Below, in pieces: positions 2,480 to 53,869 of a DNA stretch of 64,000 nucleotides (its first letter is position 1; every line of letters begins with the position of its first letter). Source of the DNA: Oscillospiraceae bacterium (GTDB taxonomy: Bacteria > Bacillota > Clostridia > Oscillospirales > Acutalibacteraceae); the NCBI GenBank assembly GCA_902792905.1, contig CADBBH010000001.1:218738-282737 (forward strand), read 5' to 3'. Under the pieces are notes generated by a model. It had not been told where the DNA came from. It searched no databases and saw only the letters and a program-made list of their open reading frames with translations. A program made the translations under genes and the position numbers.

Positions 2480-5056
2480 ATGAAACTGCTTGCAATTGAC
2501 GGAAACAGTATAGTCAACCGCGCGTTTTACGGAATAAAGCTGCTGACGACGAAGGATGGTAAATACTATACCAACGCCGTTTACGGCTTTTTAAGCATCC
2601 TGCTCAAACTCAGCGCGGATGTGAAGCCCGATGCCGTTGCCGTCGCGTTTGATGTCAGGGAGCCGACCTTCAGACATAAGATGTATGAGGGATACAAGGC
2701 AAACAGACACGGAATGCCCGATGAGCTTGCCGCCCAGATGCCGATTCTCAAGGATATTCTCGTTGCAATGGGATATAAGATTCTTGAAGCGCCCGGCTGG
2801 GAGGCAGATGATATATTAGGCACTCTCGCCAGTGCTGCGAGAGATGATGATTTCTGCTATATAGCAACAGGCGACAGGGATTCTCTCCAGCTTGTAAGAG
2901 ATAATGTAAATGTGCTGCTCGCTTCAACCAAAATGGGAAACGCTGTCACCGTGAAATATGACACGGCAAAAATCAAGGAGGATTATCTTGTTGATTCTCC
3001 TCGCCTTCTCATAGATATCAAAGCGCTTCAGGGCGATTCGTCGGACTGCATCCCCGGAGTTGCCGGAATAGGCGAAAAAACAGCGAAAGATCTCGTTTCA
3101 AAATTCGGAACCTTAGACGAAATTTACGCAAATCTCGATTCACTCGATATCAAAAAAGGCGTTCGAGACAAACTCGCGAACGAAAAGGATATGGCATACC
3201 TCAGCCGCACTCTCGGAACAATAAGCACCGAAGCACCGGTTGAAAAAGATTATGCGGTATATATCCCGTCGGAGCGTGACGCATATAAGCTCACCTCTAT
3301 TCTCTCACAGCTTGAGATGTTCAAGATGATTGAGCGCCTGAAACTCGAGAGCGTGCCCGTTCAGGCGGAGACAAAAGAAGAAACGACAGTTAAATCAGAG
3401 CTCTATACGGTTGAGGATACGGCGCTTCTGCTGAATACGCTGAAAAAGAACGGAAAAGCTTATTTCACTTTTGAAGACGGTATCTTTTATTTCGTGACTG
3501 CAAACGGAGTAGGCGCAGTCGAGCCCGATAATCCCGGATATGTATCATTCTGCTCAGATTTTCTTTTCAGCAAAGAAATAAAGAAATACACTTATAACTG
3601 CAAGTCGCTGTATTCATTCTTTTATGATTACAGAGTCGACATTCAGATAAATAAAATAGCCGGCGATGCCATGCTCGCGTCATATCTCGCAAATCCTTCA
3701 ACGGAAAGCACTCTTAAAAGGATAATAGAGGAATTCGCGGGCTATCTGCCCAGTGAAAATGCTGACACGCCCCTGCTGACCGCTTATCTTGAATCTGCTT
3801 TTGAAAAGCTCAACGCAATCATTGAAGAAAACGGCCAGCGTGAACTGTATGAAAATATTGAGCTTCCGCTCGCAAGAGTTCTCGCATCTATGGAAAAAGA
3901 AGGCTTTGAAGTCGATGCGGCAGGTATAGAAAATTTCGGCAATGAGCTCGGAGCAAAGATAGAAGCCATTGTCGGTGAAATCTATGAGGAAGCGGGATAT
4001 GAATTCAATCTCAATTCCCCGAAGCAGTTGGGCGAGGCGCTTTTTGAAAAAATGGGAATCCCCGCTAAAAAGAAGACCAAAAGCGGATATTCGACAAACG
4101 CGGAAGTGCTTGAATCACTTGCGCCCGAATTCCCCGTAGTGGCAAAAATTCTCGAATACCGCACTCTTGCAAAGCTCAAATCCACATACTGCGACGGTCT
4201 TCTCAAAGTCATCGGTGACGGCGGTAGGGTTCATTCTTCGCTAAACCAGACAGAAACAAGAACCGGCAGAATCTCATCCAGCGAGCCGAATCTTCAAAAT
4301 ATACCAGTGCGCTCACCTCTCGGAAAAGAAATGCGCAGATTCTTCAGAGCGAAAAAGGGCTGTGTGCTAGTTGATGCAGACTACTCCCAGATTGAGCTCA
4401 GAGTACTTGCCCATATGGCAAATGACAAAAATATGATTGACGCCTTCAATAACGGTGACGATATCCACGCAATCACCGCTTCACAGGTATTCAATATGCC
4501 GCTGATGATGGTAACACCGCTTATGAGAAGCCGCGCGAAGGCAGTCAATTTCGGCATTGTTTACGGCATCGGTGCATTCTCTCTTTCAAAGAATATCGGT
4601 GTCTCTGTGCCCGAAGCCAAAGAATATATAACTAACTACCTTGAGCATTTCAGCGCAGTGCGCGATTATATGAAAAAGGTAGTTGAAAACGCCCGAAAAG
4701 ACGGATATGTCAAGACGGTCTATAACCGCCGCCGCTATCTGCCCGAAATCAATTCCTCAAACGGAAACATACGCGCTTCAGCTGAAAGAATGGCTATGAA
4801 TATGCCTATTCAGGGCACTGCGGCAGATATAATCAAAATCGCTATGATAAGAGTTTTTGACGCTCTTGAAAAGATGAATTTCAAGGCAAAGCTTATACTT
4901 CAGGTTCATGATGAGCTCATTGTCGAAGCGCCGGAAAGCGAAGCGGAAATAGTTGCTTCCATTCTAAAAAGAGAGATGGAAAACGCGGTTCAGATGCGGG
5001 TTAATATGCTCGCCGATGTCGGTACGGGCAAAACATGGTATGAGGCGAAGAACTGA
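2480..5056 (+). CDS. polA: DNA polymerase I
   Basis: Family A DNA polymerase for Okazaki fragment processing and repair synthesis. Residues 1-290 form the 5'-3' (flap) exonuclease, starting KLLAIDGNSIVNRAF with the acidic EADDILGTLA segment and a helix-hairpin-helix (GVAGIGEKTA). Residues about 300-480 are a degenerate 3'-5' exonuclease domain in which the DxE metal site is absent, as in Bacillus-type enzymes, so proofreading is probably lost. The polymerase domain carries motif A (DADYSQIELR, near 632), motif B (RSRAKAVNFGIVYG) and motif C (QVHDELIVE, near 809). The length of 858 residues is normal. The ATG is preceded by an AAAGG ribosome binding site. rimI starts 1 base after the stop codon, so the two are co-transcribed. 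Confidence 0.97.
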   Translation: MKLLAIDGNSIVNRAFYGIKLLTTKDGKYYTNAVYGFLSILLKLSADVKPDAVAVAFDVREPTFRHKMYEGYKANRHGMPDELAAQMPILKDILVAMGYKILEAPGWEADDILGTLASAARDDDFCYIATGDRDSLQLVRDNVNVLLASTKMGNAVTVKYDTAKIKEDYLVDSPRLLIDIKALQGDSSDCIPGVAGIGEKTAKDLVSKFGTLDEIYANLDSLDIKKGVRDKLANEKDMAYLSRTLGTISTEAPVEKDYAVYIPSERDAYKLTSILSQLEMFKMIERLKLESVPVQAETKEETTVKSELYTVEDTALLLNTLKKNGKAYFTFEDGIFYFVTANGVGAVEPDNPGYVSFCSDFLFSKEIKKYTYNCKSLYSFFYDYRVDIQINKIAGDAMLASYLANPSTESTLKRIIEEFAGYLPSENADTPLLTAYLESAFEKLNAIIEENGQRELYENIELPLARVLASMEKEGFEVDAAGIENFGNELGAKIEAIVGEIYEEAGYEFNLNSPKQLGEALFEKMGIPAKKKTKSGYSTNAEVLESLAPEFPVVAKILEYRTLAKLKSTYCDGLLKVIGDGGRVHSSLNQTETRTGRISSSEPNLQNIPVRSPLGKEMRRFFRAKKGCVLVDADYSQIELRVLAHMANDKNMIDAFNNGDDIHAITASQVFNMPLMMVTPLMRSRAKAVNFGIVYGIGAFSLSKNIGVSVPEAKEYITNYLEHFSAVRDYMKKVVENARKDGYVKTVYNRRRYLPEINSSNGNIRASAERMAMNMPIQGTAADIIKIAMIRVFDALEKMNFKAKLILQVHDELIVEAPESEAEIVASILKREMENAVQMRVNMLADVGTGKTWYEAKN

Positions 5057-5057
5057 T

Positions 5058-5504
5058 ATGGAAACTGTAATCCGCCCGATGCTCCCCTCTGATGCGGAAA
5101 GCGTTGAAAATATTGAAAAAGAATGCTTCACATCGCCCTGGAAATATGAGGATATTCTCTATCACGCGTCAAACGGCAATTCGCATTTTCTCGTTGCCGT
5201 CATAGATGATAAAACTGCCGGCTACATCGGAGTAATCGAAACAGCGGGCGAAGCATATATCACGAATATTGCCGTGCTGCCCTCATTCAGAAGGCGCGGC
5301 ATAGCGAAAGCCCTGCTGACAGCCGCAGTTGACGGCGCAAAAAAAAGAGACTGCGAATTCATAACTCTCGAGGTTCGCGAGAGCAACAGCGCCGCGATTT
5401 CGCTCTATGAAGGTGCAGGCTTTGTGAAGGCGGGAGTAAGGAAAAATTTCTATTCAAATCCTCCCGAAAACGCAGTTCTTTATACTTTACTTTTCAAGGA
5501 ATAA
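5058..5504 (+). CDS. rimI: Ribosomal-protein-alanine N-acetyltransferase RimI-like
   Basis: GNAT-family acetyltransferase of 148 residues, resembling RimI, which acetylates the N-terminal alanine of ribosomal protein S18. The acetyl-CoA pyrophosphate loop is visible as AVLPSFRRRGIAKALL, and the C-terminal part (NSAAISLYEGAGF, then FYSNP) matches the RimI family. The ATG at 5058 lies one base beyond the polA stop; the open frame extends upstream inside polA, but those codons belong to polA. tsaD follows after 4 bases. The rimI-tsaD pairing is common in Firmicutes, usually together with tsaE and tsaB, which are not adjacent here. The S18 substrate (rpsR) is encoded at 42.2 kb. Substrate specificity is inferred from family and context. 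Confidence 0.88.
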   Translation: METVIRPMLPSDAESVENIEKECFTSPWKYEDILYHASNGNSHFLVAVIDDKTAGYIGVIETAGEAYITNIAVLPSFRRRGIAKALLTAAVDGAKKRDCEFITLEVRESNSAAISLYEGAGFVKAGVRKNFYSNPPENAVLYTLLFKE

Positions 5505-5508
5505 AACA

Positions 5509-6525
5509 ATGAAAATTCTTGCAATCGAATCCTCCTGCGATGAGACCGCCGCCGCGGTGGTTGAAGACGGCAGACGCGTGCTTTCAAATGTAATTGCTTC
5601 GCAGGTGGAGAGCCATATAATCTACGGCGGAGTCGTGCCCGAAATTGCTTCGAGGATGCACGCCGAGGCAATAAGCGGAGTGGTCCGAGCCGCTCTTAAA
5701 GACGCAAAGACGGATATTTCCGATATAGAGGCAATCGGCGTCACCTATGCTCCCGGACTTATCGGTGCTCTGCTGGTCGGCACCAATTTTGCCAAAGGTC
5801 TCGCCTATTCCGCGGGCAAGCCGCTCATTCCGACGCATCATCTTCGCTCGCATATAGCGGCAAATTATATCACCTCACCCGGGCTTGAGCCGCCTTTTCT
5901 CTGCCTTGTGGTTTCGGGCGGTCACAGCCATATAGTCGCGGTAAATGATTATACGGATTTCACCGTAATCGGCAAGACCAGGGACGATGCCGCAGGCGAA
6001 TGCATGGATAAATCCGCGAGAGCCATGGGGCTCGATTATCCGGGCGGAAAGAATCTTGATATAATTAGCAGAAGCGGCAACCCGAACGCCTACGAATTCC
6101 CTCATCCGAAGATTGACGGCAGCAAATATGATTTCAGCTTTTCGGGGCTGAAAACCGCGGTTGTAAATACGATTCATAATGCAAAACAGAAGGGTGAAGA
6201 GATAAATGTTCCGGATCTCGGAGCATCATGCATTGAGACGGTGACCGATATCCTCACCTCAAAGACGATTGAGGCGGCAAAGGAATTCGGTTTTGATAGA
6301 ATCGCGCTGGCAGGCGGCGTCTCGGCGAATTCACGCCTGAGAGAAAAAATGACCGTCCTCTGCAAAGAGAACAATTTTGCGCTGTATATGCCGGAGCTCT
6401 CCCTGTGCGGAGACAATGCCGCGATGGTCGGCGCTCAGGCATATTACGAATACAAGGCGGGGCACATTGCCGGCCTTGACCTCAACTCTTATGCGACTAT
6501 GCCGATTGACAAAATAGAATATTGA
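5509..6525 (+). CDS. tsaD: tRNA N6-adenosine threonylcarbamoyltransferase TsaD
   Basis: Catalytic subunit that transfers the threonylcarbamoyl group from TC-AMP to A37 of ANN-decoding tRNAs (t6A), acting with TsaB and TsaE. The Kae1/TsaD ASKHA fold is recognisable from ILAIESSCDETAAAVV at the N-terminus, the metal-binding histidines in THHLRSH, the phosphate-binding loops VVSGGHSH and SFSGLKTAV, and a C-terminal LAGGVSANSRLR plus CGDNAAMVG. The length of 338 residues is normal. It is the last gene of the opening plus-strand run and ends just before a strong hairpin shared with the convergent GDPD gene. mtaB at 29.5 kb would act on the same modified base. Confidence 0.96.
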   Translation: MKILAIESSCDETAAAVVEDGRRVLSNVIASQVESHIIYGGVVPEIASRMHAEAISGVVRAALKDAKTDISDIEAIGVTYAPGLIGALLVGTNFAKGLAYSAGKPLIPTHHLRSHIAANYITSPGLEPPFLCLVVSGGHSHIVAVNDYTDFTVIGKTRDDAAGECMDKSARAMGLDYPGGKNLDIISRSGNPNAYEFPHPKIDGSKYDFSFSGLKTAVVNTIHNAKQKGEEINVPDLGASCIETVTDILTSKTIEAAKEFGFDRIALAGGVSANSRLREKMTVLCKENNFALYMPELSLCGDNAAMVGAQAYYEYKAGHIAGLDLNSYATMPIDKIEY

Positions 6526-6533
6526 AAAAGCAA

Positions 6534-6553
6534 CCCTCTCCAATCGGAGAGGG
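6534..6553. terminator. Bidirectional intrinsic terminator between tsaD and GDPD
   Basis: Perfect 8-bp stem (CCCTCTCC pairing with GGAGAGGG) around the 4-base loop AATC, lying between two convergent genes. It is flanked by an A-rich stretch upstream and TATTATTT downstream, so it can act in both directions, although the T-tract is weak. Confidence 0.8.
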
Positions 6554-6559
6554 TATTAT

Positions 6560-7320: not shown

Positions 7321-8808
7321 TCAGAATGTATCGTCAACGATAACGCTCTCAAGAATTCTCGGAACGATGAAAAGGAATTTCGGCAGCCAGATTCCGAATG
7401 CGTAACCCGCTAGAGCCGCTATGCTCGGAATGAGACCGATTGCGTATTCAAATTCGCTTGTTGTATTGTCGCCTGTAAATGAAATTTCGTTTTTGCCGGT
7501 TTCCTTCTCAAGAGTGAATGTATCGGTATTGGTGATGAGGCGCTCGCCACTCTCATCTTTAAGCTCATCGGAGAGAATATAGGAATTGAAAGTGAGCTTG
7601 CCGCCGTCAATGCTGACAGTATTGAAGCACCCGCCGATATTTTCCTCTTTTGTATCATCGAAGTTCTCGCCGTTCCAGTAATTGCCGTAACCGCCCTTTT
7701 GAATAATAAGGGTGTTTATGAATTTTGTATTCATAAATGAATCTGCGAGGAACTTGCGCACCTCATATCTTTTAGAGCCGGCAGTACCGAGCAGAACATA
7801 GGTTGCGCCGTTATCATCGAGCTTATTGCCCTTGAGGCGCTTTGTGCGCAGATACTGATGATCGTGACCGCTGATTATAAGGTCAACTCCGCATTCATCG
7901 GCGACCTTGGTCAGCGACTGCTGAAGATACATGGCATCGGGCCATTTGCCGTCCTTACCGAGGGTATAGGGCGATTTATGCATAGCAATAATCTTCCAGT
8001 CCTTATCGGTGGAATTCATATCGTTTTTAAGCCATTTGAGCTGGGGAATCGTCACGGAAATGAGATCGTTTGTGTTGACAACGGCTATATGAGCGTTGCC
8101 GTAATCGAATGAATAGTTGACACCGTCTTTAATCTGCACGGATTCTCTCGTATCGAGATTGAACATATTGTTGAACCAGTATTCACATCCGAAGCCGTCG
8201 TGATTGCCCGCAACGGGAACATGAGTATACTGCAGATTAATCGGATCAAACGAATCGGCATATAAATCCCATTCCTCGTTGGTTGAATCATTTGTGTAAT
8301 CTCCTGCCGCGAGAATAAAACCTGCGTCGGGAGCGGCCTTTATCGCCGCTTTGACTGTATCAGCCGCTTTTTCGAAATTCTCTGCGGAGCTCGCCTGGAC
8401 ATCTGCAATTGCTATGAATTCAAAGCTCTCGTCGCCGTCATCGGTGACAAATCTGCCCTCTTCGCTTCTTGAATCCCTGCTGCCGACCGTGTAGGTGTAT
8501 TCCGCGCCCGGTTCAAGACCCGTAACCTTTGCCTTGTGGCAGAAGTTGCCCTCCCACTCAAACACTTCGTCATAGGTGATATTTGCAGGATTGACGCCCT
8601 CTATCTCAACAAGGGAATCTGTTTTGCTCTTGGTATACCAGCAAAACCCCCTCTCGCTCTTCGCATCGCCGTTAATGGTGACATGAATTCTGAACGGAGC
8701 AGAATCATCCTGATGAGCCGTATCATCGGCAAAAGCGAATGTGCTGTATCCTGAAATCAGGGCAATTACAAGAAAAACCGAAATGAACTTGAAAAAACTG
8801 TTTTTCAT
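7321..8808 (-). CDS. Secreted purple-acid-phosphatase-like metallophosphoesterase
   Basis: Exported calcineurin-like phosphoesterase of 495 residues. An N-terminal signal peptide ends near FAFA, followed by a fibronectin-type-III-like domain (residues about 35-120) as in purple acid phosphatases. The metallophosphoesterase domain then shows the order IADVQ, LAAGDYTND, VAGNHDG, AMHKSPY and SGHDHQYLRT, covering the two-metal ligands. The C-terminus (about 455-485) has a hydrophobic stretch that may anchor the protein to the membrane. AGAGG precedes the ATG. It lies between the SDR and GDPD genes, so it may feed phosphate scavenging. The natural substrate is not deducible. Confidence 0.87.
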   Translation of the reverse strand: MKNSFFKFISVFLVIALISGYSTFAFADDTAHQDDSAPFRIHVTINGDAKSERGFCWYTKSKTDSLVEIEGVNPANITYDEVFEWEGNFCHKAKVTGLEPGAEYTYTVGSRDSRSEEGRFVTDDGDESFEFIAIADVQASSAENFEKAADTVKAAIKAAPDAGFILAAGDYTNDSTNEEWDLYADSFDPINLQYTHVPVAGNHDGFGCEYWFNNMFNLDTRESVQIKDGVNYSFDYGNAHIAVVNTNDLISVTIPQLKWLKNDMNSTDKDWKIIAMHKSPYTLGKDGKWPDAMYLQQSLTKVADECGVDLIISGHDHQYLRTKRLKGNKLDDNGATYVLLGTAGSKRYEVRKFLADSFMNTKFINTLIIQKGGYGNYWNGENFDDTKEENIGGCFNTVSIDGGKLTFNSYILSDELKDESGERLITNTDTFTLEKETGKNEISFTGDNTTSEFEYAIGLIPSIAALAGYAFGIWLPKFLFIVPRILESVIVDDTF

Positions 8809-8829: not shown

Positions 8830-9678
8830 TCAGACACCGGAATATGCGTTGAAGCCACCGTCTATCGGCAGGATGACGCCGGTGATGAAGCCGGAATAAG
8901 TCTCGTCGCAGAAGAATGCGAGAGCACCGCTGAGATCCTCGGGAACACCGAATCTTCCCATCGGGGTATGGCCGATTATCTTTTCGCTTCTCGGAGTCAA
9001 CGAACCGTCTTCATTGAAGAGAAGATTATGATTCTGATTTGTTGCAAAGAATCCGGGAGCAATGGCGTTGACCCTGATTCCGGATTTCGCAAAGTGAACA
9101 GCGAGCCACTGGGTGAAATTCGATACGCCTGCTTTCGCCGCAGAATATGCGGGAATTCTGGTGAGCGGACAGAAAGCGTTCATAGAAGAAATATTGATAA
9201 TACACGTGTTCTGTCTGCCGACCATATCCTTTGCAAAGCACTGGGTGGTCAGAAGAGTGCCGAGAATATTGAGATTGAAAACGAATTGAATACCGCTAGC
9301 GTCAAGGTCAAAGAACGTCTTTACCCCATCAACCTTATTCTCAAGATCACCCTCTTCAAAGATATCCTTGGAGGTTGTTCCCTTGGGATTGTTTCCGCCG
9401 GCACCGTTAATAAGTATATCGCATTTGCCGAGTTCGGCAGTAATTCTCTGCCTTGCGGATTCAAGAGAATCCGCCTCGAGCACATTGCAACCTACGGCTA
9501 TGGCTTCGCCGCCTTCGGCTTTGATTTCATCAACTACGCTCTGGGCCGCCTCTTCTCTTAAATCGAGAACGGCGACTTTTACGCCGAGAGACGCAAGAGT
9601 TTTGGCAAATCCGCTGCAGAGGACCCCACCTCCGCCGGTAATAACAGCTACTCTGCCTTTAAGATTTTCGTGAACCAT
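8830..9678 (-). CDS. SDR-family D-mannonate (fructuronate) oxidoreductase-like protein
   Basis: Short-chain dehydrogenase/reductase of 282 residues. It has the N-terminal dinucleotide motif TGGGGVLCSG, the NGAGG segment, the catalytic Ser in NISSMNA and the YSAAK motif (Tyr and Lys), and ends with the typical VILPIDGGF. The insertion starting GGNNPKGTT and the GFFATNQNHNLL segment are characteristic of the SDR group annotated as D-mannonate oxidoreductase, which interconverts fructuronate and mannonate. It directly abuts the upstream Gfo/Idh dehydrogenase gene (no intergenic base) and uses a GAGGTGA ribosome binding site. No uxuA or uxaC is nearby, so a role with another keto-sugar acid is possible. 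Confidence 0.8.
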   Translation of the reverse strand: MVHENLKGRVAVITGGGGVLCSGFAKTLASLGVKVAVLDLREEAAQSVVDEIKAEGGEAIAVGCNVLEADSLESARQRITAELGKCDILINGAGGNNPKGTTSKDIFEEGDLENKVDGVKTFFDLDASGIQFVFNLNILGTLLTTQCFAKDMVGRQNTCIINISSMNAFCPLTRIPAYSAAKAGVSNFTQWLAVHFAKSGIRVNAIAPGFFATNQNHNLLFNEDGSLTPRSEKIIGHTPMGRFGVPEDLSGALAFFCDETYSGFITGVILPIDGGFNAYSGV

Positions 9679-10683
9679 TTATTTCACCTCAACCCTTTCA
9701 TTTTTTGCCGATGAGGCATAACTCGCCAACACTATAGCGGCAGCCCTGCCTCCCTCAACGGCATCTATCGGGAATTTTCTACCCATTTCAAGACAGTCAT
9801 AAAAATCTTTGATTATCGCTTTATGGCCATGGCCCCAGTAATCCTTGCCGACAAACTCTTTATCCGCTCTGTCGACGAGAAGCTCGGAGCTATCATCTTT
9901 TATCAATGTGAGTTTTTCGCCTTCAAGGCGGAGAACGGCGTTCTCAAGAAATATCTCGATAAACACCTCGATATTGACAGAAAACGCAGTAGTCGCATAG
10001 AGCATAGCGATTATTCCGCCCTCGAGTTCCATACGCACGCTTGCAGTATCCTCTACATCTATCTGACCTTTGAGATGGTCATTTGAAACATGCGCCTCAA
10101 GCGCTGTGCATCTGCCGCAGAGATACTGCATAAGGTCAACGGTATGAATTGCCTGATTTATCAGCACCCCGCCGCATTCCTTATCGGCAGTTCCGTGCCA
10201 GTCATCGCTGTAGTATTCCATACCGCGACTCCAGGTGACGAACGCTCGCGCCGCCTCGATTTTACCGTATTCTCCGGAGTCTATTATCTCCTTTGCCCTG
10301 CGCACGCACTTATTATAGCGATTTTGGAAGCAGATGCCTACCTGCTTTCCTGTCTTTGATTGCGCTTGGGAGAGAGCATTTATCTCATCCGGCGAAACAG
10401 AGCAGGGCTTTTCAAGAAAAACGTTTGCTCCGCTTTCGAGGGCCTTGATTGCCATGGGCGTATGAAGATAGTGTGGGGTCGCAATATGAACGCAATCGGG
10501 TTTTTCAGCCAAAAGCATCTGCTCATAATCATAATATGCCTTTGCACCGGTCTGAGCTGCTTTTTCGTCGGCTCTCTCTTTTTTTATGTCAACAACCGCG
10601 GCAATTTCAACATTCTGCATCGATTCCAGAGCACTGAAATGATTCCCGGAAACATTGCCGCAGCCTACAACTGCAACTCTCAT
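9679..10683 (-). CDS. Gfo/Idh/MocA family oxidoreductase
   Basis: NAD(P)-dependent sugar dehydrogenase of 334 residues. The N-terminal Rossmann fold carries VVGCGNVSGNH, the ATPHYLH segment after the fourth strand, and the EKP motif (VFLEKPCSV) whose Lys is part of the active site. The C-terminal alpha/beta domain includes GGVLINQAIHTVDL, with the usual active-site His of the family. These enzymes oxidise or reduce hydroxyls of sugars, inositols or glycosides. It lies 12 bases after the fused TIM-barrel/dehydrogenase gene and abuts the SDR gene, forming a three-gene sugar redox module. The strand is minus with an AAGGAG ribosome binding site. The substrate is unknown. Confidence 0.88.
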   Translation of the reverse strand: MRVAVVGCGNVSGNHFSALESMQNVEIAAVVDIKKERADEKAAQTGAKAYYDYEQMLLAEKPDCVHIATPHYLHTPMAIKALESGANVFLEKPCSVSPDEINALSQAQSKTGKQVGICFQNRYNKCVRRAKEIIDSGEYGKIEAARAFVTWSRGMEYYSDDWHGTADKECGGVLINQAIHTVDLMQYLCGRCTALEAHVSNDHLKGQIDVEDTASVRMELEGGIIAMLYATTAFSVNIEVFIEIFLENAVLRLEGEKLTLIKDDSSELLVDRADKEFVGKDYWGHGHKAIIKDFYDCLEMGRKFPIDAVEGGRAAAIVLASYASSAKNERVEVK

Positions 10684-10695
10684 AAGAGTCTCCTT

Positions 10696-12720
10696 TCAGA
10701 ATGTTGACGACATATCTCCCTGTACGGAATTGCTGACATTCTCTTTATCCGCCTTGCCCGAAGCAATCTTCTTTTGAAGCTCGGCAAAATAGAGTTCTTC
10801 ATCAACGGGAATCTCAATATCCTTATTGAGCCAGGAGGAAAGGTGGGCGGCGTTGGAAATTGAAAGACCGTTTATACCCTCCTCGCCCCTGGCGACAAGC
10901 TCTTCGCCTCTGAGTATTGCTGCGGCAAATTTGCTGACAACCTCACAATGCTGCTTGTTTCTTCCATCGGTTTCAACGTCTTCCCATTCACCCTCAAGTC
11001 TTCCGAATCCGCTCTCGGCAGTAGCGCAGTGCTCGGAAATTCTGCCCTTGAGACGGTAGAGGGAAATCTTGCTGCCGTCTTCAACAATTATCTTGCCGCC
11101 GTCGAGAGTGATTTCAAGACGGTTGGTGCCGGGACAGTCGCCTGTAGTTGTGATGAATGTACCTGTTGCACCGTTGGGATATTCAACATAGATTGAGACG
11201 TCATCCTCGACCTCAATATCATGCCATTTACCCTCGTGGCAGACGGCTCTGACCTTGCAGGGCATACCGCATATCCACTGCCAGAGATCAAGATTGTGCG
11301 GGCACTGGTTGAGCAGGACTCCGCCGCCTTCGCCTGCCCAGGTGGCACGCCATCCTCCGGAATTATAATATGCCTGAGTGCGGTACCAGTCCGTGATAAT
11401 CCAGCTTACGCGGCGGATTTCGCCGAGCTCGCCGCTCTTGACAAGCTCGCGGACCTTTCTGTAAACGCAGTTTGTGCGTTGATTATACATAATACCGAAA
11501 ACCTTGCCGCTGGCGGCTGCAGCCTCATTCATCTCGCGGACCTGCTTTGTATAAACACCCGCCGGCTTTTCGGTGAGAACATGAAGTCCTTTTGAAAAAG
11601 CATATTTTGCGATTACGGGATGAGCATAATGCGGAGTCGCGATAAGAACTGCGTCAACCTCGCCGCTGTCAATGAGAGCTTCGGCACTGTCGAAGGTTTT
11701 TATAAACGGGAGCAGTTCTTTCATGTTTTCCGCTCTCTCGGGAATTATATCCGCGCAGGCGGTGATTCTGATTTCGTGATGTCTGCCCTTGATATGATCG
11801 CGGATATGAGATGAACCCATATTGCCGCAGCCGATTATACCGAGGCGCACGGGCTGAGCCTGCTCTTCAACCACCTTATGGGCAGCTGAGCAGGCGGCAG
11901 CAAAGGACTGCTCATTATTGTCATAGATGTATTTTGAATTCATTTTGAGAGCTAGCTGTTCATTGGCCTCAAGATCCTTGAGACCGTCGAATGTTCTGAG
12001 ATGGGGCTCCACGCTCAGGAAGAATGCGCCCTCTTTTTCATCAAGCTTTTTGAGGATATAAGCCAGATTTCCGTCTCCCTCGCCTGCGGGCACGACAATA
12101 CCGTCCTTATAAAGACCGTCTTTGATATGCATATAGGTGATATAGGGGAAGAGGGAGTCGAAGCCCGATTTGGTATCCGAGCCGTTTAGAATATAATTAG
12201 CGGGATCGAAGATGCAGCCGAGTCTGTCACCGAAATACTCTGCTATTTCAAGGCACCTTGATGGAATATCTCCGTAGATGCCGCGCTCATTTTCATGGCA
12301 GCAGAGAATTCCGTTTTCGTTTGCATAATCAACCATTGCGGTCAGACGGGCAAAAACCTCATCATGATACTCTTCGTAGCTTTCACCCTGAGTGAAATAG
12401 AAGGAGAACATTCTGATATACTTTGCGCCGAGAATCTTTGCAACCTCAACAGTATTCTTGAACGCCTCAAAATGCGGGGCAAAATCATCTGTAATCTGAA
12501 TTTTGCCATAGTGAGAACCGATTGAAGAAACCTTCAGACCACCTTCGTCAAGAACCGCTTTGAGTGCTTTCGCCTCTTCTACGGTAAAATCTGAGATATT
12601 TTTACCGTCGCAGTTACGGAGCTCAACAAATTCGATTCTGTTCTTTTTGCAGGCTTCAATCTGCTCCTTGACTGACGCCGACGCCTCATCGGCAAAAGCT
12701 GAGAAAAGAAAATGAGCCAT
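10696..12720 (-). CDS. Fusion: xylose-isomerase-like TIM barrel + Gfo/Idh/MocA dehydrogenase
   Basis: A 674-residue two-domain enzyme. Residues 1-275 match the AP-endonuclease-2/xylose-isomerase-like TIM barrel of sugar isomerases and epimerases, with candidate metal ligands Glu143 (CHENERG), Asp172 (FDPAN), His198 (MHIKD) and Glu238 (SVEPH). A linker of about 15 residues leads to a full dehydrogenase: Rossmann motif GIIGCGNMGSSH (292-305), ATPHYAH, and the EKP motif at 384-386, then GGGVLLNQCPHNLDLWQW. The two families normally occur as separate neighbouring genes. Fusion suggests channelling of an oxidised (keto) sugar between isomerase/lyase and dehydrogenase sites. It is followed by a second Gfo/Idh gene and an SDR. 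AGAGGTG precedes the ATG. No frameshift or internal start is evident at the junction. The exact reaction is unknown. Confidence 0.88.
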   Translation of the reverse strand: MAHFLFSAFADEASASVKEQIEACKKNRIEFVELRNCDGKNISDFTVEEAKALKAVLDEGGLKVSSIGSHYGKIQITDDFAPHFEAFKNTVEVAKILGAKYIRMFSFYFTQGESYEEYHDEVFARLTAMVDYANENGILCCHENERGIYGDIPSRCLEIAEYFGDRLGCIFDPANYILNGSDTKSGFDSLFPYITYMHIKDGLYKDGIVVPAGEGDGNLAYILKKLDEKEGAFFLSVEPHLRTFDGLKDLEANEQLALKMNSKYIYDNNEQSFAAACSAAHKVVEEQAQPVRLGIIGCGNMGSSHIRDHIKGRHHEIRITACADIIPERAENMKELLPFIKTFDSAEALIDSGEVDAVLIATPHYAHPVIAKYAFSKGLHVLTEKPAGVYTKQVREMNEAAAASGKVFGIMYNQRTNCVYRKVRELVKSGELGEIRRVSWIITDWYRTQAYYNSGGWRATWAGEGGGVLLNQCPHNLDLWQWICGMPCKVRAVCHEGKWHDIEVEDDVSIYVEYPNGATGTFITTTGDCPGTNRLEITLDGGKIIVEDGSKISLYRLKGRISEHCATAESGFGRLEGEWEDVETDGRNKQHCEVVSKFAAAILRGEELVARGEEGINGLSISNAAHLSSWLNKDIEIPVDEELYFAELQKKIASGKADKENVSNSVQGDMSSTF

Positions 12721-12738: not shown

Positions 12739-15027
12739 TTATTTGAATTTACAAATTATCTTGTTATCCTTGGCCGTCACCGTGACGGTTTTAATCGGAT
12801 TGTCAACTCTGCTCACCATTTCACCGGTAATCGCATCCTCGACATTCTTTCTGATGCAGGAGCGGATATCACGCGCTCCTCTTGTTCCGTCTGCGGAGAG
12901 AGCGGCAATCGTTTCGGTAGCCGCGTCATCATATTTGAGAGTTATGCCTTTATCCCTGAGCGGATCAACAAGCTCATCAAGCAACAGGGCAGCTATCTTC
13001 TGATAGTTCTCCTGAGTAAGGTCGTTGAACACAACAACTTCATCGACTCTGCCGATGAATTCGGGACGCAGGAACTGCGAAAGTGCCTTGAGTGAGCGCT
13101 CTTTCGAGGCCTCGTTCTTTGTTTTGCCGAATCCGAGCGCACCTGCCGCGCGGTCACTGCCCGCGTTTGAAGTCATAATAATAACGGTATTCTCAAAACT
13201 TACCTGCCTGCCCTGGGCATCGGTAATCTTGCCCTCATCGAGAATCTGAAGCAGGATGTTCATAACATCCGGATGCGCCTTCTCAATTTCGTCAAACAGC
13301 ACCACGCTGTAGGGCTTGCGGCGGACTTTTTCTGTGAGCTGACCTGCTTCATCATAGCCGACATAACCCGGAGGGGATCCTATTATTCTTGAAACCGAGT
13401 GCTTCTCCATAAACTCGCTCATATCAAGACGAATAAGTGTTTCGGGAGTTTCAAAGAGCTCTTTTGCGAGGAGTTTGACAAGTTCGGTCTTGCCGACACC
13501 GGTGGGACCTACAAAAATGAATGATGAAGGTCTGCGGCGCGGATTAATCTGAACTCTGCCTCTGCGGATAGCGTTGCACACAAGTTCAACAGCCTCATCC
13601 TGCCCTATAAGATGCGCTTTGAGATTTGCTTCAAGCTCCGCAAGTTTTCTCAAATCGCTCTCAATAACCTTGCTGGCAGGGATTCCGGTCCAGAGCTGAA
13701 TGACTCTCGCAAGATCATCCTCGGTCACAAAATTGTCATTCGCCTTCTCTTCAAGGTCTTTTATTTCTTCACGCTTTCTGATGAGGTCGGATTTGATTTT
13801 TGCGAGTTCCTCATAGTCAACCTCGCCCGAGTTGTCCTCAAGCTCCGCCTCACGCGCTTCAAGCTCCGCGATTTCATCAAGCGCCTGTTCATAGTCGCTT
13901 ATCGCTTTATTGCGCAGATTCGCGCAGGTACACGCTTCATCGAGCAGATCGATTGCCTTATCGGGCAGAAAACGGTCGGTAATATATCTCTCGCTCAGGC
14001 GCACCGCCTTCTCAACAAGAGTGTCGGTCACCCTGACCTTATGGTAATTCTCGTAATATTCCTTAACACCCTTGAGCATCTCGATGGTATCGTCAATCGA
14101 TGGTTCCTCAACCTTAACAGGCTGCATACGGCGCTCAAGCGCTGCATCCTTCTCAATGTATTTTCTGTATTCAGTGAATGTAGTGGCGCCGATTATCTGA
14201 AGTTCCCCTCTTGAGAGGGACGGTTTCAGAATATTTGCGGCATTCATTGAGCCTTCGGATTCGCCGGCACCGACCAGCTGATGTACCTCATCGATAAACA
14301 GAATGATATTACCCTCGGACTTGACTTCGTCAATCAGCCCCTTGATTCTGCTCTCAAACTGGCCTCTGAACTGAGTACCTGCAACAAGAGCAGCAAGATC
14401 AAGCATCTGGATTTCTTTGTCCATAAGCTTTGCAGGGACTTCTCCGGCCGCAATCTTCTGAGCGAGGCCTTCTGCGATGGCGGTTTTGCCGACTCCGGGC
14501 TCGCCTATCAGACAGGGATTGTTTTTCGTTCTGCGGCAAAGGATCTGAATCGAGCGATATATTTCGTTTTCACGTCCTATGATACGGTCGATTTTTCCCG
14601 CTCTCGCCTTTGCGGTGAGGTCGGTGCAGAACTGAGTGAGATACTTTCTCTTTTTCTCGCCCTCTTCTCTGTTCTTTCTGCCGAATCGGTGTTTTTTCTC
14701 GGGCTCTTCGGTCTTCTCATCCGTATCCTCGCCGGATTCGCCCTTATTATTCTGCATTGCCGCAAAATTCTGCATAAACGGCAGAGTTCCAGCGCCGCCC
14801 GGTTCGAAATTTCCGCTTTCAAACATTTCGCCGAACTGCTCGCTGACTTCCTCAAGTTCATCCTCGGATATACCCATCGACTCTATAATCTGCTTGATCG
14901 GGCCGATATTCATATCCATGGCGCATTTCAGGCAGAGGCCTTCCTGCGTCGTCTTTTCGCCCTCGATTTTTGTCATAAAAAACATCGCCGGGCGCTTTTT
15001 GCATTTTGAACATAAAACCTGCTTCAT
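12739..15027 (-). CDS. ClpE-like Clp ATPase with N-terminal zinc finger
   Basis: Hsp100-family AAA+ unfoldase of 762 residues. Instead of the repeated Clp N-domain of ClpC, the N-terminus has a four-cysteine zinc finger (Cys6, Cys9, Cys32, Cys35), as in ClpE and McsA, then an acidic linker. AAA1 has Walker A GEPGVGKT at 175-182 and LFIDEVHQLVGAG. A coiled middle segment lies near 390-440. AAA2 has GPTGVGKTEL, LFDEIEKAH and the arginine-finger region. An ALGFG segment in AAA2 sits where the ClpP-docking (I/L/V)GF loop lies, so partnership with ClpP is likely. No ctsR, mcsA or mcsB is nearby. The start is preceded by AGAGGAAA. Confidence 0.88.
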   Translation of the reverse strand: MKQVLCSKCKKRPAMFFMTKIEGEKTTQEGLCLKCAMDMNIGPIKQIIESMGISEDELEEVSEQFGEMFESGNFEPGGAGTLPFMQNFAAMQNNKGESGEDTDEKTEEPEKKHRFGRKNREEGEKKRKYLTQFCTDLTAKARAGKIDRIIGRENEIYRSIQILCRRTKNNPCLIGEPGVGKTAIAEGLAQKIAAGEVPAKLMDKEIQMLDLAALVAGTQFRGQFESRIKGLIDEVKSEGNIILFIDEVHQLVGAGESEGSMNAANILKPSLSRGELQIIGATTFTEYRKYIEKDAALERRMQPVKVEEPSIDDTIEMLKGVKEYYENYHKVRVTDTLVEKAVRLSERYITDRFLPDKAIDLLDEACTCANLRNKAISDYEQALDEIAELEAREAELEDNSGEVDYEELAKIKSDLIRKREEIKDLEEKANDNFVTEDDLARVIQLWTGIPASKVIESDLRKLAELEANLKAHLIGQDEAVELVCNAIRRGRVQINPRRRPSSFIFVGPTGVGKTELVKLLAKELFETPETLIRLDMSEFMEKHSVSRIIGSPPGYVGYDEAGQLTEKVRRKPYSVVLFDEIEKAHPDVMNILLQILDEGKITDAQGRQVSFENTVIIMTSNAGSDRAAGALGFGKTKNEASKERSLKALSQFLRPEFIGRVDEVVVFNDLTQENYQKIAALLLDELVDPLRDKGITLKYDDAATETIAALSADGTRGARDIRSCIRKNVEDAITGEMVSRVDNPIKTVTVTAKDNKIICKFK

Positions 15028-52549: not shown

Positions 52550-52573
52550 AAATATATGGGAGGATTGACAAAA

Positions 52574-53869
52574 ATGGATTACAGAATGACTCTCACCCCG
52601 GAGCAGGAAGAAATACTAAACGGCTCAAAGGGTGAAACCATGGCAAAGGTTATGAAAACCCTAGTCATGTACGGCGACGCTTTCGGTGCAGAGAAGCTGG
52701 TGCCCGTCACAAGCAACCGCGGCCACCTTGTAACGAGCTTCGGCCTGAAGGTTATGAAACCGGTCTACGACCTTATGGATACGCTCATCAATGCAGCGGC
52801 GGTATCGGGTCAGAAATTCTCGGTTGACCCCAAGCCCCTCGATCCGAATGTTCCCGCAAGTTTTCTTGAGAATTTTGTGTTCAAAAAATTTATGTATTCC
52901 ATGCAGGACAGCTATGATAAACAGCTGCGCGATCTCGGACTTATTGACGACAGCTCCTATACCTGCACCTGCTATATGGATGAGGTCGGCAACAAGCCTG
53001 TCAAGGGCGATGTCCTATCCTGGGCTGAATCCTCCGCTGTTGTGTATGCGAACTCCGTACTCGGAGCACGTTGCAACAGAAATTCGGGCATAATTGAGCT
53101 TTTCGGCTCGATTGCGGGCTTCGTTCCTTACTTCGGGCTCTTGACCGATGAGGGCAGAAAAGCAACCTGGATAGTCGAAATCAAAACAGAGAAAAAACCG
53201 GAGGCGCAGATTCTCGGCTCCGCAATCGGTATGAAAGTTATGGAGGATGTCCCCTATATCAAGGGCCTCGATAAATGGATTGGCACCGAGCTTGACGGCG
53301 ACACATGCGCTTATCTCAAGGATTTCGGCGCGGCTACCGCCTCAAACGGCGCCGTCGGTCTCTATCATATCGAAAACCTCACTCCCGAAGCGGTCGAGCA
53401 GGGCGAATCCCTTATCGCAGAAGGAGCGCAGGTCTATGTGATTGATGACGCTGAGCTTGAAAGAGTAAAGAACAACTATCCCGTTATGTGGAAGGATAAG
53501 AACGCTCCCGCTCAGCTCTGCTTTGTCGGCTGCCCGCATCTCTCGCTCGCGCAGCTCAATGAATGGACCGAAAACGTCTGCGAAGGTCTTAAAAAGAACG
53601 GTCTTTCAAAGGTCAGTGTTCCCACCGTATTCACCGCGGCGCCCGGAGTTATTGAAGCATTTGAAAAAACACCTCTCAGCGCAAAATTGAAAGAAACGGG
53701 CATTGTTCTCAGCTATATCTGCCCGCTTATGTATATGAACAACCCTCTCTGCAAGAAAAAGAACGTAATCACAAATTCAAATAAGCTCCGCACATATACA
53801 ACGTCGAGATATTGCACAAGCGCCGAAATTCTCGATATAATCACGACAAAGGGAGGTACAGTGAAATGA
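52574..53869 (+). CDS. Aconitase X large (catalytic) subunit
   Basis: A 431-residue protein of the AcnX/DUF521 family, distant relatives of aconitase. Characterised members are cis-3-hydroxy-L-proline dehydratase (bacteria) and mevalonate 5-phosphate dehydratase (archaea). Supporting segments are LTPEQEEILNG at the start, AESSAVVYANSVLGARCNRNSG, CFVGCPHLSLAQLNEW and the C-terminal cysteine region GIVLSYICPLMYMNNPLC with TSRYCTSAEI. The Cys residues likely bind an iron-sulfur cluster. The ATG at 52574 follows GGAGG by ten bases. The small subunit overlaps by four bases. The substrate here is not assigned; no proline or mevalonate genes are close. Confidence 0.88.
   Translation: MDYRMTLTPEQEEILNGSKGETMAKVMKTLVMYGDAFGAEKLVPVTSNRGHLVTSFGLKVMKPVYDLMDTLINAAAVSGQKFSVDPKPLDPNVPASFLENFVFKKFMYSMQDSYDKQLRDLGLIDDSSYTCTCYMDEVGNKPVKGDVLSWAESSAVVYANSVLGARCNRNSGIIELFGSIAGFVPYFGLLTDEGRKATWIVEIKTEKKPEAQILGSAIGMKVMEDVPYIKGLDKWIGTELDGDTCAYLKDFGAATASNGAVGLYHIENLTPEAVEQGESLIAEGAQVYVIDDAELERVKNNYPVMWKDKNAPAQLCFVGCPHLSLAQLNEWTENVCEGLKKNGLSKVSVPTVFTAAPGVIEAFEKTPLSAKLKETGIVLSYICPLMYMNNPLCKKKNVITNSNKLRTYTTSRYCTSAEILDIITTKGGTVK

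Follow-up and report, generated by a model that had tools for sequence, protein, structure and literature searches.

The gene at positions 10696..12720 (minus strand) of the window, that is, of the whole 64,000-nucleotide stretch of Oscillospiraceae bacterium DNA analyzed here, joins in one chain two enzymes that are often separate proteins in related bacteria. Its product probably takes part in the non-hydrolytic breakdown of glucuronides, as far as can be judged from sequence. The reading that we prefer, to which we would give close to an even chance, is that the fusion is a bifunctional enzyme of a hexuronide pathway that proceeds by oxidation, elimination, hydration and reduction. Its substrates would most likely be glucuronides and not glycosides or inositols in general.

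The open reading frame runs from ATG to TGA without internal stops and encodes 674 amino acids. Its N-terminal part (approximately residues 1-268; 11917..12720, minus strand) is a xylose isomerase-like TIM barrel (hereafter TIM1), which was recognized by Pfam (AP_endonuc_2, PF01261; residues 22-240, 8.6e-21, above the cut-off) and by the (beta/alpha)8 fold of the AlphaFold2 model with a predicted E/D/H/E metal site. A junction helix (residues 269-288; 11857..11916, minus strand), placed by the AlphaFold2 secondary structure and preceded by a low-confidence loop (approximately 241-260), forms the boundary between the barrel and the Rossmann fold. The C-terminal part (residues 289-674; 10699..11856, minus strand) is a Gfo/Idh/MocA dehydrogenase (hereafter Gfo1), matched above the cut-offs by GFO_IDH_MocA (residues 292-410, 4.1e-19) and GFO_IDH_MocA_C3 (residues 420-544, 8.9e-28); the overlapping Pfam profiles of this family together span residues 292-629. 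The NAD-binding motif GxGxxG (residues 297-302; 11815..11832, minus strand), the EKP motif (E384-K385-P386; 11563..11571, minus strand) and the alpha/beta C-terminal domain of such oxidoreductases are all present. AlphaFold2 returned a single confident two-domain model for the fused protein (pLDDT 90.5, pTM 0.89), and the barrel modeled alone reached a pLDDT of 93.2. Thus, the uninterrupted minus-strand frame and the Pfam matches confirmed the single-chain fusion of a TIM barrel and a Gfo/Idh/MocA dehydrogenase that an earlier, sequence-only reading of this DNA had described without naming the strand. That reading had also considered both active sites intact, and the alignments agree: the metal ligands that it named (Glu143, Asp172, His198 and Glu238) were invariant in 60/60 barrel rows, the EKP motif was kept in 60/60 dehydrogenase rows, and GxGxxG was likewise conserved in relatives.

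An assembly artefact or a missed stop codon could be ruled out, because a full-length fusion without stops was found in 40 of the 45 genus members compared (the window's own genome and 44 relatives), which also answered the suggestion of the sequence-only reading to look for full-length homologs with the same domain order. Two further genomes (G028 and G037) contained parts of the fusion that span both domains and one (G014) a barrel fragment only, and no fusion match was detected in G002 and G006, which are 80 and 81% complete, respectively. When an evenly drawn sample of the phylum was searched, with at most two candidates scored per genome, matches at E<=1e-60 were present in 25 of 398 genomes; the uninterrupted full-length form occurred only in the window's own genome, and several others had two genes in tandem that were read through with stops. 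As for the earlier question of whether this is a common and already characterized enzyme, the fusion is indeed common in the genus, but no published description was found: a literature search covering few subscription papers returned no account of the single-chain form, of a link with glucuronate genes or of an E-N-E barrel. The kind of pathway to which the parts belong is already known.

Gene neighborhoods were compared in a locus table whose input was 84 loci, namely the window, L038-L117 (the best 80 of 578 confirmed relatives, which lean towards close relatives) and L122-L124. An anchor was obtained for 77 of them; seven (L048, L049, L075, L092, L096, L097 and L109) were left out, apparently because the selection of the longest ORF settled on an overlapping frame, though all are listed as matches. 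Absences carry little weight in several of the 77 loci, where the contig runs out after a few kilobases. In this table (best 80 of 578 relatives plus extras), 40 loci were fused, 26 carried an unfused TIM1 and Gfo1, and 11 had Gfo1 without a nearby TIM1. TIM1 stood directly before Gfo1 in 23 of the 26 unfused loci, and therefore the fusion appears to be a join of neighbors in their existing order. In the trees, which contained 39 fused rows, the fused/unfused label had to change two times for Gfo and three times for the barrel, and the starred branches force equally many changes. Three fused rows (L067, L069 and L073) formed a small clade apart from the other 36 in both trees, and in the barrel tree the unfused L115 and L122 were nested among those 36. 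Either repeated fusion or one fusion with later splitting is possible from these trees. In the three loci of the small clade, a third barrel family (TIM3) directly follows the fusion; the nearest relatives of its L069 copy were the putative sugar isomerase 3kws and ketose 3-epimerases.

Sequence comparison placed Gfo1 in the glucuronide-3-dehydrogenase family of 8TDI (P2B11). This entry, whose title 'P2B11 glucuronide-3-dehydrogenase' is the depositors' own naming, was the best solved sequence relative (E 8.6e-107, with the next at 2.6e-26), and 186 of 368 aligned residues were identical. Its twelve chains occupied ranks 1-12 of the Foldseek list obtained with the Gfo1 model (48-50% identity) and were followed by structures of WlbA, crystallized with NADH and UDP-GlcNAcA. 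Among the 112 near-invariant columns of 60 Gfo1 rows, 96 were kept in 8TDI; the controls kept 49 and 47 of the same columns (two Gfo2 proteins, see below) and 29 and 36 (two further Gfo proteins encoded in this genome). The name inositol 2-dehydrogenase was rejected, as the IolG profile reached 97 bits where its cut-off is 355. The Gfo half matches nearly the whole 405-residue chain of 8TDI (3-394), in which the barrel is absent. P2B11 reportedly comes from a screen for non-Koshland glycosidases by Nasseri et al. (Nature 2024).

The reaction of the barrel is less directly indicated. Among 60 aligned barrel rows, 26 columns were invariant, including E143, N144, E145, D172, H198 and E238, which lie at 12007..12294 (minus strand); the ligand role of E143, D172, H198 and E238 is assigned by family analogy. 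According to the accessible part of the report on AtOGE, a 3-keto-O-glucoside eliminase, this enzyme binds its metal via His132, Asp163, His189 and, weakly, Glu233 and uses His134 as catalytic base, and C-glycoside eliminases have a Glu ligand and the same catalytic His (PMC10628242). The AtOGE-type arrangement, a ligand with the catalytic His two residues on, was not found in TIM1, in which 60/60 rows have E143-N-E145; a Glu would thus occupy the position of the AtOGE base, the two being paired by position and not by structural superposition. A second barrel family encoded in related operons (TIM2) matched AtOGE (8bvk, 5e-28) and retains H-N-H, which was present in 11/11 TIM2-labelled proteins examined and in 0/5 other proteins examined. 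Profile matches of TIM1 comprised AsbF (titled probable 3-DHS dehydratase, 2.5e-12), Art22 (titled isomerase), MJ1311 and IolI. Its fold neighbors in Foldseek were mostly epimerases and isomerases, together with a dehydratase, YcjR (6wn6, rank 43; no sequence match to TIM1 at E<=1, nor by profile at E<=0.01) and AtHYD (8ro4, 2-hydroxy-3-keto-glucal hydratase; rank 19), which also gave a weak phmmer match (E 0.065) and has E-L-H against the E-N-E of TIM1. Because the fold neighbors are so mixed, the fold does not settle which reaction TIM1 catalyzes.

More could be learned from the company that TIM1 keeps. In the 77-locus table (best 80 of 578 relatives plus extras), TIM2 was near TIM1 in 10 of the 26 loci with unfused TIM1, and neither TIM2 nor UxaC was near any of the 40 fused loci, several of which are on short contigs. 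In loci that hold both barrels, the eliminase role falls most naturally to TIM2, which would leave TIM1 with hydration. By this elimination, hydratase is the most likely role of TIM1, with eliminase and epimerase ranked behind. The sequence-only reading had proposed 3-keto-glycoside chemistry in which the barrel rearranges or eliminates; two intact families of the cooperating type, the kinship with 8TDI and the 23 adjacent unfused pairs are in favor of the chemistry, whereas the absence of H-x-H argues against the barrel as an eliminase. The fusion may, as that reading also suggested, channel an unstable keto-sugar. In the order, 53 of the 394 genomes searched had a match to 8TDI at E<=1e-100, and the surroundings of the three closest of these relatives were compared. 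In L132 (66% to 8TDI), UxaC, SDR, TIM1 and Gfo2 lie on one strand, and TIM2 lies on the opposite one together with the 8TDI-like gene. Near L131 (71%) and L133 (61%) there is a TIM2-like gene, and no TIM1 or uronate gene was caught by the labels. TIM1, present only in L132, therefore does not always accompany 8TDI-type enzymes, and the eliminase-like TIM2, with a similar gene beside all three, is the steadier partner. It is through the TIM1-Gfo1 pairs themselves that TIM1 is putatively linked to 3-keto-uronide chemistry.

In the window, a Clp-type ATPase gene (12739-15027; identified by reading the protein) precedes the fusion at a distance of 18 bases, and 12 bases downstream of the fusion comes a second Gfo/Idh/MocA oxidoreductase (Gfo2; 9679..10683, minus strand), a candidate 3-keto reductase whose nearest solved relatives are the same two WlbA entries. 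A short-chain gene of the D-mannonate oxidoreductase (fructuronate reductase) family (SDR; 8830..9678, minus strand; PRK08277, 438.5 bits with a cut-off of 281) begins 0 bases after Gfo2, and then come a metallophosphatase gene and a GDPD gene. The metallophosphatase (7321-8808, minus strand) is of the purple-acid-phosphatase type and has, by eye, a signal-like start; among the loci listed, this cluster was found at this place only in L038 and L039. A terminator-like hairpin at 6533-6554 is a consensus match only, and within the window neither Rfam at gathering scores nor PHROGs at E<=1e-10 gave a match. Elsewhere in the window (52556-53869, plus strand), an aconitase X (AcnX) gene directly follows the TrkA and TrkH potassium-transport genes.

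Uronate genes accompany the fusion in most of the loci compared. In the 77-locus table (best 80 of 578 relatives plus extras), Gfo2 and SDR were each near 25/40 fused loci, and a gene for SDR, UxuA, UxaC, KDG kinase or KDPG aldolase was present on the same strand within 8 kb in 27/40 fused and 9/26 unfused-TIM1 loci, a count that leaves out KdgK labels at 24-25% identity (L052 and L078); the other 13/40 fused loci had no uronate gene within 8 kb. The fullest sets were found in L057, L060 and L101, in which the fusion, Gfo2, UxuA and SDR occur together with KDG kinase and KDPG aldolase, the latter two set off by a single intervening gene, and in L063, which is the same without Gfo2. The unfused pair of L122 is associated with Gfo2, UxuA, SDR, KDG kinase and KDPG aldolase, interspersed with further ORFs, and operons with both barrels read TIM2-TIM1-Gfo1-UxaC-UxuA (L123) or TIM1-TIM2-Gfo1-UxaC-SDR plus a second Gfo1-like gene (L135). 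In L062, a GH130-type mannooligosaccharide phosphorylase gene (4558-5589) follows the fusion and Gfo2 where SDR stands elsewhere; this copy was the one scanned, and its cluster mates are in L064 and L087.

Within the genus, whose genomes are related and whose co-occurrences are therefore not independent events, SDR was present in 43/45 genomes; the two that lack it are precisely those in which the fusion had no match. Fusion and SDR lay on one contig, at most about 2.5 kb apart, in 38 of these 43 genomes and on different contigs in G003, G005, G014, G038 and G043. UxaC was found in 40/45 genomes, including the window's own. UxuA exceeded the family cut-off in 18/45 and was missing from 27/45, several of which are at least 96% complete. 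In the window's genome (G000, 84% complete), the glucuronate route (UxaC, fructuronate reductase and UxuA) is accordingly incomplete: UxaC and SDR are present and UxuA is not. Because only 4 of the 15 genomes that are at least 90% complete have UxuA, its absence is not due to incompleteness, and most of the genus, this genome included, appears to be without a recognizable mannonate dehydratase, though SDR and UxaC are kept. Two substitutes were considered and found no support: an enolase-type mannonate dehydratase (no MR_MLE_C match in this genome) and the altronate (galacturonate) branch (UxaA in 1/45 genus genomes, as a fragment).

In the scheme that we infer for the substrate, the direction, the hydratase role and the cooperation of the two halves, Gfo1 would oxidize C3 of a glucuronide with NAD+ to give the 3-keto-glucuronide, a separate H-N-H eliminase, encoded by a neighboring gene in some relatives and here possibly acting in trans, would expel the aglycone, TIM1 would add water to the resulting glycal to give 3-keto-glucuronate, and Gfo1 or Gfo2 would reduce the latter with the NADH from the first step. 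UxaC would convert glucuronate to fructuronate and the neighboring SDR would take it to mannonate. The order of steps is transferred by inference to the fused protein from two pathways: the available parts of the sources report it for levoglucosan (PMC7676230) and propose it for phlorizin (PMC10628242). Since no TIM2 was near the 40 fused loci, the eliminase would have to work in trans or be the barrel itself. TIM2-like genes elsewhere make the former possible: one with H-N-H (33% identical) lies beside another Gfo on contig 15 of this genome (L137, 7131-7994), and in G025 and G026 such a gene adjoins another Gfo1 that is not fused. L137:7131-9151 is a second pair, consisting of an AtOGE-like Y-H-N-H barrel gene and then a Gfo/Idh gene, upstream of genes that by eye resemble purine genes. 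On contig 4 of this genome (L138:5503-8445), which may hold yet another locus for sugar oxidation, a Gfo/Idh gene diverges from two genes, of which one matches the barrel weakly and the other resembles it by eye.

Known systems share parts of this design. Levoglucosan breakdown by LgdA/LgdB1/LgdB2/LgdC likewise uses oxidoreductases and two annotated sugar phosphate isomerases, but these are four separate proteins, the product is glucose, and no uronate genes are named in the accessible part of the report (PMC7676230). The Agrobacterium set of AtOGE, AtHYD and a Gfo oxidoreductase is similar in that TIM2 is AtOGE-like and TIM1 has the fold of AtHYD; the motifs differ (E-N-E in TIM1, E-L-H in AtHYD and H-N-H in AtOGE), and the available part of that report mentions no fusion (PMC10628242). 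In E. coli, the 3-keto-glucoside dehydrogenase YcjS and the isomerase YcjR, a 3-keto-glucoside 4-epimerase, also act on a 3-keto sugar, as described in the accessible part of the source (PMC11543891); they are separate proteins, and YcjR lacks a sequence match to TIM1.

Three other readings assign a different role to the barrel or to the operon. We consider it unlikely that the barrel is a beta-eliminase that expels the aglycone as soon as Gfo1 has oxidized C3, and perhaps hydrates the product too. An unstable 3-keto sugar would be the intermediate most worth handing over, TIM2 is near 0/40 fused but 10/26 unfused-TIM1 loci (best 80 of 578 relatives plus extras), and LgdB2 is described in the accessible part of its report as partly bifunctional, eliminating and hydrating (PMC7676230). 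However, the H-x-H with catalytic His of AtOGE (from the available part of PMC10628242) is set against an invariant E-N-E, several operons contain both barrels, and fusion-bearing genomes have TIM2-like genes elsewhere, here with H-N-H. A YcjR-like 3-keto-uronide epimerase or isomerase, by which the fusion would interconvert uronides before the glucuronate route, seems to us slightly less likely still. The two invariant Glu ligands (E143 and E238) and the Foldseek neighbors, most of which are such enzymes, agree with it, and a pair of a Gfo enzyme and a TIM-barrel isomerase is known in E. coli (accessible part of PMC11543891); the fold search, however, fails to distinguish epimerase from dehydratase, and the YcjR match is confined to fold. 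The operon might also serve another uronate-like substrate or direction, for example with SDR and both Gfo enzymes making or recycling a sugar acid, which we regard as very unlikely. This genome lacks UxuA, as do 11 of the 15 genus genomes that are at least 90% complete, which leaves a gap in the usual route onward from mannonate, and UxaA is nearly absent too; on the other hand, UxaC is widely kept in the genus, and UxuA, SDR, KDG kinase and KDPG aldolase stand together by the fusion in four loci and by the unfused pair in L122.

A bolder reading, to which we attach quite a low probability, is that the protein is a self-contained non-Koshland glucuronidase, in which the Gfo half would oxidize and re-reduce C3 with recycled NAD and the barrel, with a new E-N-E metal site, would carry out both aglycone elimination and glycal hydration. 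It would fit the distribution of the eliminase gene between fused and unfused-TIM1 loci (0/40 versus 10/26 among the best 80 of 578 relatives plus extras) and the finding of more than one fused/unfused change in the trees, but it sits less well with the Gfo2 gene that adjoins the fusion and with the TIM2-like genes elsewhere in the genome. If true, such an enzyme would be a two-domain counterpart of the GH4 glycosidases.

Glucuronides are one of the main forms in which drugs, hormones and bile pigments are excreted by mammals, and glucuronic acid is also found on xylans. The record titles of related Clostridia name rumen and gut samples. The E-N-E barrel represents a family without an assigned reaction, for which the range of substrates worth trying is now short, and the fusion suggests which two activities of the pathway profit from tethering. 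Surveys of gut bacteria usually target hydrolytic beta-glucuronidases, and a conserved, operon-borne oxidative route in these Clostridia would escape them.
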